Shown: positions 6,683-32,806 of the stretch, one piece after another
Layout of the letters: each line of letters starts with the position of its first letter
Position numbering within the stretch: position 1 is the stretch's first letter
Assembly: GCA_947588785.1 (NCBI GenBank)
Contig: CANPZN010000012.1
Location: 1 to 32,806, forward strand
Origin: Candidatus Gastranaerophilales bacterium
GTDB taxonomy: Bacteria > Cyanobacteriota > Vampirovibrionia > Gastranaerophilales > Gastranaerophilaceae
Reading direction: 5' to 3'
DNA length: 32,806 bases
Notes under the pieces: generated by a model
What the model was told of the DNA's origin: nothing
What the model saw: only the letters and a program-made list of their open reading frames with translations
Database searches by the model: none
Position numbers and translations under genes: made by a program

Positions 6683-7183
6683 GTGGAAGTATATAAAAAG
6701 AATAAAATTGAAAAAATTTTTTCAGAAAAGATAGATTGTCAATCAGATATAAATGAGATAGTTGCATTATTGAGAAGGTATAAAAAAATTACTGATTTAT
6801 ATAGCTATAAAATAAAGGTTGATAAATCAAATAAAAAATTATTAATTAATTTAATTGAATTTAAAGATTTTAATTTATATAGTTTGTCAGCGATAGTATG
6901 GAATTTAAATAACTGGGAAAAGTATTTAAAGGTAAAGTCGGAAATAAAGATATATAAGAATAAAAAAGAAATTATGGATTGTCCTGAAAAAATTTGTAAT
7001 AATGAGCTAGAGCGAAATTTTGGAGTGGATATTTTACAAGGTAAGTACTATCAGGAGAGAAAGGAAAATTCAATGCAGCCTGAGGCAAAGTACGACACCG
7101 GATTAAATTTAAAAAAAATAAGATATATTTTATTAGCAGATATTTATAATAAAGTTATAAAAAAAATAATAATGATGATATAA
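6683..7183 (+). CDS. Protein of unknown function carrying a dispersed repeat near its C-terminus
   Basis: I do not recognise this protein. It has 166 residues with a GTG start and AGGA 6 bp upstream. The first two thirds are mixed alpha/beta and Lys-rich (KIDCQSDINEIVALLRRYKK and onward). Residues about 106-141 are encoded by a copy of the dispersed repeat also found near 11.4, 21.1 and 29.65 kb (ERNFGVDILQGKYY, then KYDTGLN). The repeat may therefore have entered the coding sequence in frame, or the other copies may be decayed relatives of this domain. A short hydrophobic Ile-rich end follows (IIMMI). It is probably co-transcribed with the preceding small gene, and smpB begins 7 bp later. 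Confidence 0.55.
   Translation: MEVYKKNKIEKIFSEKIDCQSDINEIVALLRRYKKITDLYSYKIKVDKSNKKLLINLIEFKDFNLYSLSAIVWNLNNWEKYLKVKSEIKIYKNKKEIMDCPEKICNNELERNFGVDILQGKYYQERKENSMQPEAKYDTGLNLKKIRYILLADIYNKVIKKIIMMI
6998..7106 (+). repeat. Dispersed repeat, copy A (inside the unknown ORF)
   Basis: Alignable blocks shared with copy D are AATAA-GA, CGAAATT-TGGAG-GG and TTTTA-AAGGT. It shares CGACACCGGATTAAAT (16 of 16 bases) with copy C and AATTTTGGAGTGGA (14 of 14) with copy B. Between GGT and GACACC, the aligned arms GTACT (7045-7049) and AGTAC (7089-7093) can pair, enclosing a GCC-TGA-GGC mini-hairpin (7078-7086). It is read in the ORF frame. Confidence 0.65.
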
Positions 7184-11514: not shown

Positions 11515-12480
11515 ATGCAAAAACTAATAGAAATAAAAAATTTAAAAATGTATTATCCCATAATAGATGGACTTATGGGAAATATTAAAGGTTATGTATA
11601 TGCTTTAAATAACGTAAATTTAGAAATATATGAGAATGAAATATTAGGGCTTGTAGGTGAATCGGGAAGCGGTAAATCTACACTGGGTAATTGTATTGTA
11701 AAATTGATAACTCCGAAATCAGGGGAGATTCTGTTTGAAAATGAAAATATAATAAACCAAACAAAAAAAGATTTAAAATTATATAGAAAACAAGTACAGC
11801 TTATATTTCAAAATCCCTATATGAGCTTAAATCCACGAATGAAAATATATGATATTTTGAAAGAACCATTTATTGTACATAAAATAAAAGAAAAAAAAAT
11901 AATTAATGAGAAAATAAAAAAAATAATATCATTAATAGGCTTAGGAGAAGATGTCCTTGAAAGATATCCTCATGAATTTTCAGGTGGTCAAAGGCAAAGA
12001 ATTGCCATAGCAAGAGCAATAATATTAAATCCTAAATTCGTAGTGGCAGATGAACCTGTCAGTGCATTGGATGTCAGTATTCAAGCACAAATAGTAAATC
12101 TTCTTCTTGATTTAAAACATCACCTCAATCTTACGATGCTATTCATTTCTCACGATTTGAGCGTTATCAAATTTATTTCAGACAGAATAGCAGTAATGTA
12201 TTTGGGTGAAATAGTTGAAATATCTGAAAAAGGAGAACTGTTTAAGAATTATAAACATCCATATACACAAGCTTTATTGAGTGCAGTACCAAAAATAGAC
12301 AATAAAAATAGTGAAAAAATAATATTAAAAGGAGATCTTCCTTCACAACAGGATTTGCCAAAAGGCTGTAAATTTCATACAAGATGTAAGTACGTAATGG
12401 AAAAATGTAAAAATATTTCTCCGGAATTATATAATATTGCCGGGGATCATAAAGTCCGTTGTTTTTTATATGAAAAATAA
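11515..12480 (+). CDS. Peptide-type ABC transporter ATPase (OppF/DppF family), orphan
   Basis: This ATPase subunit would energise oligopeptide or dipeptide import. Walker A is GESGSGKST, the Q-loop is QNPYMSLNPRM, the signature is FSGGQRQRIAIARA, Walker B is VVADEPVSALD and the switch His lies in FISHDLSVI. The C-terminal oligopeptide-transporter domain has the expected cysteines (GCKFHTRCKYVMEKC). The DppF/OppF subtype is indicated by the N-terminal insertion (YYPIIDGLMGNIKGYVYALN). The length of 321 residues is normal. No permease or binding protein is adjacent, so its partners lie elsewhere. Its 3' end overlaps an antisense gene remnant by 34 bp. Confidence 0.9.
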   Translation: MQKLIEIKNLKMYYPIIDGLMGNIKGYVYALNNVNLEIYENEILGLVGESGSGKSTLGNCIVKLITPKSGEILFENENIINQTKKDLKLYRKQVQLIFQNPYMSLNPRMKIYDILKEPFIVHKIKEKKIINEKIKKIISLIGLGEDVLERYPHEFSGGQRQRIAIARAIILNPKFVVADEPVSALDVSIQAQIVNLLLDLKHHLNLTMLFISHDLSVIKFISDRIAVMYLGEIVEISEKGELFKNYKHPYTQALLSAVPKIDNKNSEKIILKGDLPSQQDLPKGCKFHTRCKYVMEKCKNISPELYNIAGDHKVRCFLYEK

Positions 12481-12745
12481 TCCTGTGTTGCATTTTCTGC
12501 CGACTCTCTTTTAATTGGATCAGCAGCACCTTTAAAGTTTTGTCTAAGCTGATTTATTTGTCTTGAAATTTCTTTCGCTCAAGCCTGTCGTTCGTTAGCT
12601 TTTGTCTGTCTTTATTTTTGCGAACCTGACTTTGTATTTTTTTTAAATTCCTCTCACGTTGGGAATCTGCAAAATATTCTCGGACAAAATAATTAATCAA
12701 TGCTGATAAAATTTGCTTTTTGTATTTATGGTTAAAAAAAATCAT
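12447..12745 (-). pseudogene. Frameshifted remnant of a small basic protein gene (unknown)
   Basis: One frame runs from ATG 12745 for 63 codons (ending ERKKFQDK, stop at 12554-12556). It is rich in Lys, Arg and Gln, with SQRERNLKKIQSQVRKNKDR. A second frame, -1 relative to the first, continues from about 12588 to a TGA at 12447. It encodes EISRQINQLRQNFKGAADPI and about 20 more residues ending in YKKQRTL. Joined, they give about 99 residues of plausible helical basic protein, so a single indel in AAAGAAA (12570-12585) is the simplest reading. The family is not recognised. A sequencing error or programmed frameshift is possible, though no classic slippery heptamer is seen. It lies antisense between oppF and mlaE. 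Confidence 0.4.
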
Positions 12746-20225: not shown

Positions 20226-21011
20226 ATGAATAATTATGTTTTACCGTTAATTTTAACATTATTCGCCGGAATGTCTACGTTATTGGGCGGATTTATAACT
20301 TTTTTTGTCAAAAGAAATAATTTAAAAGCACTGTCAGTAGGACTCGGATTTTCAGCCGGTGTAATGATATATGTAAGTTTAAGCGAGTTAATGACAGAAT
20401 CTTCTGCAATGCTTGAGAATTACTATAGTATAAAATTTTCAAATGCCCTGGCATTCTTGGGATTCTTTTTCGGAATAGTTATAGCGGTATTAATTGATTA
20501 TTTTATTCCTGACCATATAGAATCAGATTTTCTTAATACTTCAAAAAATTGTCAAAGAAGACGAATGATAAGACGAGCCGGATTAATTACAGCGATAGCT
20601 GTAAGTCTGCATAATTTTCCTGAGGGAATGGCTACTTTTTTAGTGTCCAGTGAAGATTTAAGGTTAGGAATTCCTGTTGCAATAGCTATTGCTATTCATA
20701 ATATACCTGAAGGTATAGCAATAGCCCTTCCGATATTTCATGCTACTGGTAAGAAAAGATTAGCGATATTGTATTCATTTCTATCAGGGATATCAGAACC
20801 TGTAGGCGGATTAATAGGAGTTCTGTTATTGAAAACAATTATGCCTTCTCAGACGGTTGGAATTATGACAGCTGCTGTCGCAGGAATTATGGTTTATCTT
20901 TCTTTGGATACTCTTTTGCCTCTTTCAAGAGAATATGGAGAAAACCATCATGTTATTATTGGAATAATTTCAGGTATGTTAATAATGAGTTTGGGGTTAA
21001 TATTTTTATAA
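20226..21011 (+). CDS. zupT: ZIP-family divalent metal transporter (ZupT-like)
   Basis: This inner-membrane protein imports zinc and other divalent cations. Two metal-site helices are clear: SLHNFPEGMATFL (TM4) and AIHNIPEGIAIALP (TM5). LSGISEPVGGLIGVLLL is TM6. About eight membrane spans and 261 residues match ZupT. It starts at ATG 20226 without a ribosome site, with TATGTT/TATACA boxes within 20 bp. It is divergent from the TolC-family gene. Directly after its stop come a G10-A10 tract and dispersed repeat copy C. Confidence 0.94.
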   Translation: MNNYVLPLILTLFAGMSTLLGGFITFFVKRNNLKALSVGLGFSAGVMIYVSLSELMTESSAMLENYYSIKFSNALAFLGFFFGIVIAVLIDYFIPDHIESDFLNTSKNCQRRRMIRRAGLITAIAVSLHNFPEGMATFLVSSEDLRLGIPVAIAIAIHNIPEGIAIALPIFHATGKKRLAILYSFLSGISEPVGGLIGVLLLKTIMPSQTVGIMTAAVAGIMVYLSLDTLLPLSREYGENHHVIIGIISGMLIMSLGLIFL

Positions 21012-21020
21012 TATCCCTGT

Positions 21021-21040
21021 GGGGGGGGGGAAAAAAAAAA
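21021..21040. repeat. G10-A10 homopolymer tract
   Basis: Ten G followed by ten A lie 10 bp after the zupT stop and join the dispersed repeat copy C. A G10 run is extraordinary in such AT-rich DNA. It may mark slippage, or replicate the GCGAAATT segment seen at this point in copies A and D. It could also be an assembly error. Confidence 0.9.
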
Positions 21041-21119
21041 TTGGGGTGTGGTGTTTTTAAAAGGTGAGCAACTTTACGGCTCAGATGAACAAGCACAAGG
21101 TTGCGACACCGGATTAAAT
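21039..21119 (+). repeat. Dispersed repeat, copy C
   Basis: From GTTTTTAAAAGGTGAGCAAC onward it matches copy D (inverted, 29.6 kb) over about 55 bp with few changes. Its last 16 bases match copy A. The arms GCAAC (21068-21072) and GTTGC (21100-21104) can pair across 27 nt. Read forward it gives WGVVFLKGEQLYGSDEQAQG then CDTGLN. Its end overlaps the stop codon of the convergent GNAT gene. Confidence 0.8.
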
Positions 21120-21614
21120 ATTATATTCCATTATATAATCATCCATAACAAAACCGTGTCCTATATCGGTAACAACTGCATTAATTTCTGTAAATCCCCA
21201 TTTTTTGTATGCATTTATTGTATTAATATTATATTTATTTACAGTCAGTTGTATTTTAGGTTTATTATATTGTTTTGCTAATTGGATTATTTTATTAAAT
21301 ATAGTTTTCCCAAAACCTTTATGCCTAAATTCTTTTTTTAAATATAGTTTTGATAAAAATAAATAATCTTTTTTTAAGCATATTCCGAAATAGCCAACAA
21401 ATTGTGAATTGTTTTCAATTATATTATATATATAGTTGTTATTTTTAATCTGATCATTTATTGATTCAAAGGACTGAAATTTGTTAAGCATATAATCTAT
21501 TTGTTCATTAGATAGAAGGCAAGGCCAATATTCATGCCAAATTTCACAGGCTAGATTTGTTAGTATCTTGATATTTTCTCTTGTTTCAATATTTATATAA
21601 TGTAAATTATTCAT
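21114..21614 (-). CDS. GNAT-family N-acetyltransferase
   Basis: This enzyme would transfer an acetyl group from acetyl-CoA to an amine; the substrate is unknown. The GNAT fold is supported by FLSKLYLKKEFRHKGFGKTIFN (acetyl-CoA-binding R-x-x-G-x-G region, about residues 88-108), followed by IQLTVNKYNINTINAYKKWGF, a standard motif B. It has 166 residues. ATG 21614 is preceded by AAAAGG. It is probably co-transcribed with the upstream phosphatase-like gene (33 bp apart). The final codons ATT-TAA and the following TCCG are shared with the lytic transglycosylase gene's end, because both abut a copy of the dispersed repeat. Confidence 0.86.
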   Translation of the reverse strand: MNNLHYINIETRENIKILTNLACEIWHEYWPCLLSNEQIDYMLNKFQSFESINDQIKNNNYIYNIIENNSQFVGYFGICLKKDYLFLSKLYLKKEFRHKGFGKTIFNKIIQLAKQYNKPKIQLTVNKYNINTINAYKKWGFTEINAVVTDIGHGFVMDDYIMEYNI

Positions 21615-29587: not shown

Positions 29588-29610
29588 TCCGTTTTTTCAA
29601 ACATAATTTT

Positions 29611-29707
29611 TAATATGGTGTTGCAACATTGTGCTTGTTCATCTGAACAGTAAAGTTGCTCACCTTTTAAAAACGCCGCTCCATAATTTCGATCACGTTC
29701 CTTATTG
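29611..29707 (-). repeat. Dispersed repeat, copy D (inverted)
   Basis: On the minus strand it reads AATAAGGAACG, CGAAATTATGGAGCGGCG and TTTTTAAAAGGTGAGCAAC, then CAGATGAACAAGCACAA. Similarity to copy A begins at GAAAATT (about 29717), and the core is nearly identical to copy C. Arms GCAAC/GTTGC (29623-29627 and 29655-29659 on the plus strand) enclose GTTCATCTGAAC. It encodes NYGAAFLKGEQLYCSDEQAQ with no stop, and the frame closes at 29584-29586. It fills the spacer between two convergent genes. Confidence 0.8.
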
Positions 29708-29729
29708 CGGAATTTTCTCGAACGAATAG

Positions 29730-32700
29730 TTATACTTTTATAGAATTTAGTTGACAAAATGATTTAAATACACTTTTTATTTTTGAAGTTTTTTCTATTA
29801 TAGTGTTAATATTTAATTCTTTAGCTATTTTTATTGCTTTTTCACAAGTTTCAAATGTAAGTTTTATATATTCTGAAGAATATATATTATTTACTTTCAT
29901 ATATTCTTGCATGTATTGTATATAATCAATGTATAATTCAACAAGCTGGTATTTTAAATTGTGTTGATTTGCGATAATTACTGCTTTTTCAAGATACATT
30001 TTTACTGCAGTAAGATCACCTTTTTTCATATAAATTTCCGCTAAATATTTTTCAAAATATATTGTGAAGTAGTAGTTATTGATTTTCGGACTTTGAGCAA
30101 TTTCAAGAGATTTGGAGGCCGTACTTAGTGCTTTATCCAATTCATTTGTTTCAATGCTTAATCTGACAATAAATGCCCAGGATAACATAGCCCCTATTGC
30201 TACTTTTTCTTTTGCAAAATAGGTTATTTCCTCATTATATATTTCCAGTGCTTTTTTCAGATTTCCTTCATTGTTTAAAACAAGCCCTAATATTAACTTA
30301 ATTATATTTTTAATAAAATGTTCATTTATATTATTTGTAAATGCGGCTAATTCAAACAAATCAGCTTTTAGGTTCGGATCTTTTTCTTCTGATAGTGTTA
30401 ATATTCTGTTAATTATTTTAATTAAATTCCATTCTGCTAGCAGATTTGTTGCCAGTGTTGTATTTTTATATAATTCTGTTATATTTTCCAGAATGTTATT
30501 TGATTTATTTATATATCCGTTCATAGTATTGGCGAATGCTTCTATCAAATTTACTTGAGTATTATAGTAGGCAGTTCTGTAATTATTTTTTTCTATGAAT
30601 TGTTTTATTACATTTATTTCTTTATATACATTTATATTTCCTTGTAGTGCATATGCTTTTGCTAATGTTACAGATGATAGTAACCAAGCGTCAATTAATA
30701 TTATTTTATAATTTGTATTATTTTTCTTTTCATTTATTCCTTTTTCTATTTCAGGTAAAATTTCTTCTTTCACAATGTTAATTATTTGTTCGCTATTACC
30801 TATATTAAACAGAGCTTTTAATTTTCTTGTTTTTATTAATGCTATTTCAAGATTATACTGATTTAATTCTTGGTTTGGCAGATTTGCTATTATTGAATCT
30901 ACTGCTTCTGTAACTCCGAAATAGTTTCCGGATAAATAACAACTTTGAATAAAATAACTTGATATATCTATTATTTTATTAATATTTCCGTTTTTGATTT
31001 CCACATCTAATACATTTGCCAAATATGTGATAGTTTCTTTTGGTGATTTCTCATAAAGAAGTTTTCCTAACTGTTCGTATAGGGTAATTTCTATATTTTC
31101 AGAATCTTGTATTCTTTTTTCTTCTATAAGTTTTAAACATTGTTTACCTGCTATTATATATAAATTTGTATCACCTAATTTTGCACTAAGTTTTAATGTA
31201 TTTTTCCATATATTAAATGCTTCTGATTCTTCTAATGCTTCTGTACAGGATATTAATTTTTGCAAGTTACTTGAGAGGGTTAATGGTTTTAGGCTTTGGT
31301 AAAGATGTTGTGAATTTTCTTTATAGAGTGAATCTTGCTGAGCTTCTTTATATACTATTTTCCATAGTGAGTGGCTTTTAAATTCATATGTATAATTATC
31401 AACTTCTTTAAAGAATAAATCTTGTTTTAGATATTCTATTATTTCTTTTATTTTTTTTGTTGATAATGAAATAGCATTATTTAATATAGGCAATGCGAAT
31501 CTAAAGCCCATAATTGCTGACATATACAATACGTTCTTTGGTCTTGGCGGCAGCGTATTTATTCTTAATTTTATTAATTCTTCAAATGTTTGGGGTTTAG
31601 TTATCGGTTTATTATTTTCATTAATTATCAAGTTATTGTTTTTTAAATTAAAGTAATTTATATCAAAAAGTAATGCTATTTCTTGTTCTAATCTTAAGGC
31701 ATTTCCATTTGACATTGTTAAAATTTCATTTAAATTCTCGGAGGGTAAAAGGTTATTTATATTTATTCCCAATGTTGTTGAAACTGTGTTTACAATTTCT
31801 TCATTATTAAATTTTTTAATAAATATTGTTTCATAATATTTATCATCAATTGTGGAGTCAAAGTAGCTTTGTATTGTTTTATCTTCTGAGTATGCTACAA
31901 ATAATTTTAGTCTATTATTTATGGATTTTTTATTTAATAAATATAAAATAAAGTCATAAGATGCTCCATCTAATAATTCAAAATTATCTATTGCTATTAT
32001 TACATTTGTATTTACTAAGAAGGATTTTATAATTTTTTCTAATATAGAAAACATTTTATTTCTGTTTGTAAGTATATTATCAAAATTATCTTCAAGTGAT
32101 GGATAGAACATATTTAAAAATAGTAAGAGTTCTTTATTATTTAGAAAATTGAATGCTTGATAATATTTACTTTTTTTAAAATCTTTTATAAAAGAAGAAA
32201 TATTGTTTATGTAAGGGGGAAATTTCATTATTCTTAAAAAGGCATCCTGGAAAAATCCAAAGCTTGTAATTTGGGATAAAGGGGTGCAATTTCCTTTTAA
32301 GAATAGGTATCCATTTTGAGATAATATATCTGATACTTGGTTTATGATGGCTGTTTTTCCGCATCCTTCAGGCCCGTTTAATGCTATTATATTTTTATCT
32401 AATGATGTTTTTATTGTATTTATTACTTTTCCTACTATATCACCTCTTACGGGGGAAATTTCATTTTCTTCTCTTGATTCTTCTTCATTTTCATTGTTTT
32501 CATATAATTCTTCTGATGGATATTCTTCAATTGGGGTTATTTCTATATTTTCATTTAATAAATCTTCGATATTATTATCTTGTTCAAATGTGGAGGTATC
32601 GTGAATATCTTTAGAATCTTCTTTTAAATCAATGTTTTCAGTAATTTCACTATTATCTGTAATGATATCTTTAGAATCTTCTTTTACGTCAATATTTTCA

Positions 32701-32806
32701 GTAATTTCACTATTATCTGTAATGATATCTTTAGAATCTTCTTTTAAATCAATATTTTCAGTAATTTCACCATTATCTGTAATGATATTTTTAGAATCTT
32801 CTTTTA
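29730..32806 (-). CDS. Large P-loop ATPase with helical repeats (MalT/STAND-like), N-terminus outside the window
   Basis: About 1025 residues are visible and the start lies beyond the right edge. The methionine at 32228 is internal, because the frame is open upstream and holds the Walker A GPEGCGKT (32352-32375). Order from the N-terminus: tandem 20-residue acidic repeats (32605 to the edge), a Glu/Asn-rich linker, the P-loop, Walker B-like NVIIAIDNFELLDGAS, sensor-like KLFVAYSED, a winged-helix-like region (about 31400-31600) and about 500 residues of TPR-type helices (GNLKKALEIYNEEI, KGDLTAVKMYLEKAV). This resembles AAA/STAND signalling ATPases fused to TPRs. No effector or DNA-binding C-terminus is seen: it ends QLNSIKV. 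An N-terminal effector, kinase or zinc-ribbon domain may lie outside. The role is unknown. Confidence 0.8.
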   Translation of the reverse strand, partial: KEDSKNIITDNGEITENIDLKEDSKDIITDNSEITENIDVKEDSKDIITDNSEITENIDLKEDSKDIHDTSTFEQDNNIEDLLNENIEITPIEEYPSEELYENNENEEESREENEISPVRGDIVGKVINTIKTSLDKNIIALNGPEGCGKTAIINQVSDILSQNGYLFLKGNCTPLSQITSFGFFQDAFLRIMKFPPYINNISSFIKDFKKSKYYQAFNFLNNKELLLFLNMFYPSLEDNFDNILTNRNKMFSILEKIIKSFLVNTNVIIAIDNFELLDGASYDFILYLLNKKSINNRLKLFVAYSEDKTIQSYFDSTIDDKYYETIFIKKFNNEEIVNTVSTTLGININNLLPSENLNEILTMSNGNALRLEQEIALLFDINYFNLKNNNLIINENNKPITKPQTFEELIKLRINTLPPRPKNVLYMSAIMGFRFALPILNNAISLSTKKIKEIIEYLKQDLFFKEVDNYTYEFKSHSLWKIVYKEAQQDSLYKENSQHLYQSLKPLTLSSNLQKLISCTEALEESEAFNIWKNTLKLSAKLGDTNLYIIAGKQCLKLIEEKRIQDSENIEITLYEQLGKLLYEKSPKETITYLANVLDVEIKNGNINKIIDISSYFIQSCYLSGNYFGVTEAVDSIIANLPNQELNQYNLEIALIKTRKLKALFNIGNSEQIINIVKEEILPEIEKGINEKKNNTNYKIILIDAWLLSSVTLAKAYALQGNINVYKEINVIKQFIEKNNYRTAYYNTQVNLIEAFANTMNGYINKSNNILENITELYKNTTLATNLLAEWNLIKIINRILTLSEEKDPNLKADLFELAAFTNNINEHFIKNIIKLILGLVLNNEGNLKKALEIYNEEITYFAKEKVAIGAMLSWAFIVRLSIETNELDKALSTASKSLEIAQSPKINNYYFTIYFEKYLAEIYMKKGDLTAVKMYLEKAVIIANQHNLKYQLVELYIDYIQYMQEYMKVNNIYSSEYIKLTFETCEKAIKIAKELNINTIIEKTSKIKSVFKSFCQLNSIKV
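32605..32806 (-). repeat. 60-bp in-frame tandem repeat in the ATPase gene
   Basis: Complete units at 32641-32700 and 32701-32760 are flanked by partial units at 32605-32640 and 32761-32806 (cut by the edge). Units differ at only one to three bases. Each encodes 20 residues, KEDSKDIITDNSEITENID plus L or V. The near-identity implies recent expansion. The total number of units is unknown. Confidence 0.95.

Follow-up and report, generated by a model that had tools for sequence, protein, structure and literature searches.

A dispersed palindromic element of Gastranaerophilales that keeps the reading frame of the genes it interrupts

A short peptide that recurs at several places in one contig of Candidatus Gastranaerophilales turned out to belong to a dispersed DNA element, for which we observe dispersal, exact empty sites, keeping of the reading frame in genes and covariation in hairpins. 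Our data make it highly probable that this is a non-autonomous, MITE-like palindromic element of Gastranaerophilales, whose insertions into genes are tolerated when they keep the frame and lost when they break it. The best-known cases of palindromic inserts in frame come from the obligate intracellular bacteria Rickettsia and Wolbachia; the phenomenon is seen here in relatives of cyanobacteria that live in the gut, and closely related species provide the exact empty sites. All genomes compared are metagenome assemblies.

The window, which is the whole analysed stretch of 32,806 nucleotides, is contig C12 of a 2.1-Mb metagenome-assembled genome of Candidatus Gastranaerophilales. It was searched with a DNA profile trained solely on copies from outside the window, and this profile recovered three copies that an earlier note on the sequence had described, A (E=5.4e-9), C (E=4.5e-18) and D (E=1e-21), whose peptides (ERNFGVDILQGKYY.., GVVFLKGEQLYGSDEQAQGCDTGLN and DRNYGAAFLKGEQLYCSDEQ, respectively) also match that description. 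These copies are members of an element with more than 50 copies in the same genome (52-53 matches in a peptide search). A fourth copy, B, that had been proposed together with them did not reach significance, and a composite copy that the note had not listed was found with the same profile. The features are:

6683-7183, plus strand: carrier ORF of copy A, a protein without assigned family, directly upstream of smpB; the orthologous open frames have 94-129 residues
6980-7108, plus strand: copy A, a degenerate 129-nt element, in frame within the 166-residue ORF; syntenic orthologues are without the segment
11421-11444, plus strand: the proposed copy B, a 24-nt fragment, not significant (E=34)
12475-12686, minus strand: composite copy that spans 212 nt and has the two element ends; it lies essentially between genes
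21002-21119, plus strand: copy C, of which the right two thirds are intact; a G10/A10 run takes the place of the left part
29608-29724, minus strand: copy D, complete, 117 nt, intergenic, flanked by convergent genes

The right end of copy C supplies the stop codon of an acetyltransferase-like ORF (21114-21614, minus strand). The run of G10 followed by A10 in this copy (21021-21040) could reflect hypermutability or an error of assembly. Rfam gave no match anywhere in the window, and at the window edge (32605-32806) there is a tandem repeat with a 60-nt unit, the copies of which are 96% identical.

Complete copies have the left end TGTCCGAG and the right end GATTAAAT, and the unit can be described as running from TGTCCGAG to ATTAAAT. 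Most units measure 117 or 123 nt; besides them there are a shortened form of 96 nt and one intragenic copy of 84 nt, and longer copies contain additional modules of about 54 and 102 nt; all these unit and module lengths are multiples of three. The two ends are not complementary and there are no terminal inverted repeats; instead, two separate and independent subterminal hairpins are predicted, in most single copies as well as in the consensus. Evidence for these hairpins comes from covariation among 21 diverse copies, in which 97.8% of the hairpin pair cells hold standard pairs and 11 of the 30 pairs show changes on both sides. A control with slid partners gave pairing in 33-54% of cells, and none of 500 shuffles reached the observed covariation score. 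In two loci of the window's genome (L048 on contig C9 and L056 on C2), a second repeated in-frame stretch, similar to TRECEDELNDKRSVVKHSSDTKRIIEPIGEINEP, is joined to the element; both sit inside long open frames of unknown proteins, as composite inserts of up to about 150 codons.

The six bases to the left of the element form an AT-rich, TTANAT-like hexamer, and 57 of the 65 sites carry A at target position -4 (p=2.5e-18). There are two exact empty sites. In the shikimate kinase gene of genome G014, which provides the strongest case of all, TTAGAC is followed by a 117-nt unit and then by AGTTCT, and the gene is uninterrupted in G016 and G033; the insert amounts to 39 residues that are missing from these two orthologues at about 90% protein identity. 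In a helicase gene of G033, ATAAAT precedes a 117-nt unit and ATT follows it, G016 and G014 have the exact empty site, and there is no target duplication. At the shikimate kinase site, the right end of the unit is TTAGAC and thus identical to the target. A full target-site duplication was considered and rejected, as a pairing of left and right flanks over all copies gave a correlation at the last right-end base only, and this correlation is weak (z=3.8); because of it, a very short duplication is possible. We take the element to insert whole, directly 3' of the AT-rich hexamer, whose consensus is TTANAT, and with no clear target duplication.

Copy A reads TGTCCTGA...GGATTAAAT in phase 0 of the ORF that starts at 6683 and contributes 43 codons to this 166-residue ORF; the added residues lie between EIMD and LKKI. 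The carrier ORF has no Pfam family and no credible NCBIfam match. The earlier note had suggested that the repeat sits in frame inside this gene and that orthologues should be compared; the same gene, directly before smpB and without the segment, was indeed found in nine related genomes, so that the placement in frame is borne out by orthologues with and without the insert. The same peptide recurs in frame in unrelated proteins. In a GlcF/LutA-like protein of the window's genome, the insert is missing in 29 aligned orthologues; for LarE, the matches in other genomes stop where the insert starts; and for shikimate kinase, LarE and YfiH, the alignments with solved structures and Pfam are interrupted at the insert positions. 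Further carriers are an LPG-synthase TM protein, a GH38 mannosidase, an HI0933-like protein and the DSHCT-type helicase, and the YfiH and DUF3326 genes carry the element in reverse orientation.

Among 79 complete copies with flanks, a set enriched for open-frame copies as carriers were fetched on purpose, nine are intragenic, and all nine keep an open frame, six in plus and three in minus orientation; at least three different frames of the element are used. For one of them, L042, no domain was recognised. A copy upstream of the RimP start (L087/L132) was excluded from the intragenic count, and L082, a candidate for a broken intragenic copy, is actually located at the junction of two adjacent genes. 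In a pattern-drawn sample of 42 copies, two lie inside conserved genes, one for LarE (L093) and one for a metallo-beta-lactamase-fold protein (L080). Of 47 units sampled, 23, or about half, offer no open frame whichever way they are read, and no unit of this kind was found inside a gene; likewise, no intragenic copy of the abundant stop-bearing 123-nt subfamily was found.

We suggest the following course of events. Most units have a length divisible by three and insert without clear duplication, so a genic insertion would keep the frame whenever the element frame used is stop-free. Such insertions may survive selection, and the host protein would gain a tolerated insert of about 28-63 residues; frame-breaking insertions would be lost, and stop-rich subfamilies would therefore stay intergenic. 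The inserts are probably translated, and the carrier proteins probably retain their activity. The system makes two questions testable: does the length of the unit, with the choice of target, yield frame-keeping insertion as a by-product, and how well does an enzyme such as shikimate kinase cope with 39 additional residues?

The earlier note had also proposed that the peptide itself is conserved, and the recurrence of the same peptide in unrelated proteins, together with unit and module lengths divisible by three, might indeed indicate a functional module under selection at the amino-acid level, for example a degron, a linker or an interaction motif. However, the element peptide is not under detectable selection. 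In the peptide frame of the 117-nt copies, pN/pS is about 0.95, and four of the five other frames give lower values; the note had named a ratio near 1 between copies as evidence against its own proposal. Open frames are no commoner in the element than in dinucleotide shuffles, genes use three element frames and both orientations, and the shikimate kinase insert common to G014 and G027 differs by one synonymous and three nonsynonymous changes, versus six and one in the flank (Fisher p=0.09). A peptide module is therefore very improbable, and the peptide appears conserved because the element DNA has spread recently. One could also imagine a mini-intron, excised from the transcript, or a bypass element, skipped during translation, either of which would yield a protein without the insert. 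The strong conserved hairpins at both ends and the presence of inserts in conserved enzymes, among them shikimate kinase and LarE, would suit this idea. Frame and stops would be irrelevant if the element were removed, but all nine intragenic copies are stop-free in the frame used, and the stop-bearing 123-nt subfamily, despite its abundance, was not encountered in genes. We regard such a removal as very improbable, and the tolerated, frame-keeping insertion of a MITE-like element as the preferred reading.

As to the mobilisation of this MITE-like element, its layout—subterminal hairpins, no inverted repeats, a preferred left sequence and little or no duplication—points to a single-strand route like that of IS200/IS605. 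A search for Y1 transposase families (IS200/IS605 or RAYT) detected none in the window's own genome or in the other element-rich ones; G000, G022, G025, G016 and G033, where the element is most abundant, have no Y1 match. Left ends without right ends, inspected in the well-assembled genomes G025 and G034, revealed no autonomous transposase-bearing copy and no parent IS. Because of these results, the IS200/IS605-like route is put forward by analogy. Y1 proteins, mostly RAYT-like, are encoded in 11 of 41 genomes of the genus, and at one locus (L228) an element copy lies about 330 nt from a RAYT-like gene, hence within about 500 nt, which would be compatible with a REP/REPIN-type palindrome mobilised by the RAYT transposases of the genus. 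But this RAYT-like gene adjoins a different, GTAG-type palindrome (GTAGGGCAGACTTTAGTCTGCC), the element-richest genomes are without a Y1 match, and unit size and two-hairpin layout are different, all of which makes mobilisation by RAYTs unlikely. No complete element was present at 14 other Y1 loci. As a separate observation, some element copies in the window's genome (L004 and L005, on contigs C28 and C9) have a GTAG-type REP (GTAGGGTAGACTTTAGTCTACC) as their neighbour, and a REP similar to GTAGGGTAGACTTTAGTCTACC is found beside the RAYT-like gene of the relative (L228).

The MITE-like element can be compared with several known systems. The PATEs derived from IS200/IS605 are defined by hairpins near the ends, no terminal inverted repeats and insertion 3' of a short target without duplication (PMC7290912). 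The Gastranaerophilales element shares the hairpin near each end and the lack of terminal inverted repeats, and it may share the insertion 3' of a short preferred sequence without target duplication. It differs from PATEs in that the element-rich genomes have no Y1 TnpA and no parent IS with matching ends was found, in its loose hexamer target versus a strict 4-5-mer, and in the recurrence of in-frame intragenic copies. Correia 107-bp elements, ERIC/RU-1 and other MITEs are short repeats that do not move autonomously, and some contain open frames that are fused to genes (PMC2229807). Small size, lack of autonomy and fusion with ORFs are common to these and the element described here, whereas the Correia and ERIC/RU-1 MITEs have terminal inverted repeats, target duplications and TA at the termini; for sequence relation, the comparison covered Rfam, Pfam and NCBIfam. 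The CIR repeats of Caulobacter and Brucella, with two independent stem-loops, a linker and no terminal inverted repeats (PMC2229807), resemble our element in the two independent hairpins and the lack of such repeats, but are reported as not occurring within genes and have stops in all six frames.

The closest parallel are the Rickettsia palindromic elements (RPEs), hairpin-forming dispersed repeats of about 105-146 bp that occur in frame in unrelated conserved genes and in intergenic regions (PMC2229807, PMC10969869) and that have terminal inverted repeats of 12 bp (PMC2229807). The likeness to RPEs drawn in the earlier note is apt, as the Gastranaerophilales unit of 117 or 123 nt forms covarying hairpins and is located in frame within unrelated conserved genes, as are RPEs and their Wolbachia equivalents. 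Unlike RPEs, it has two separate subterminal hairpins in place of terminal inverted repeats, belongs to a different phylum, and its intragenic copies occur in both orientations and three frames. The note's view that it is not that family by sequence agrees with our results, in which the element peptide matched no Pfam or NCBIfam family and an exact 21-mer scan gave no hit in Rickettsiales. It is about as likely as not that the element represents a bidirectional palindrome family that invades genes and evolved independently outside Rickettsiales. Its unit length and insertion chemistry would then preserve the reading frame, the nested modules, too, being multiples of three, and selfish spread would, as a by-product, keep supplying proteins with in-frame insertions in both orientations. 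A search of a partial literature collection found no mention of such an element in Gastranaerophilales.

The distribution of the element is narrow. An exact 21-mer scanned against 84,980 species matched in Candidatus Gastranaerophilales MAGs only and was absent from viral contigs. The element was detected in 21 of 35 members of the genus and in none of 23 genomes outside the family; together with related copies it extends over four genera of one family of Gastranaerophilales, and it was found in that family only. The other genera of the family have related left hairpins, some with further compensatory change. In one of them (g19, genomes G083 and G133), near-identical elements (L299-L305) have the left hairpin in common with the element and a different right half that often ends in GGAGAACTGCTTTATT, and they constitute a sister family in high copy.
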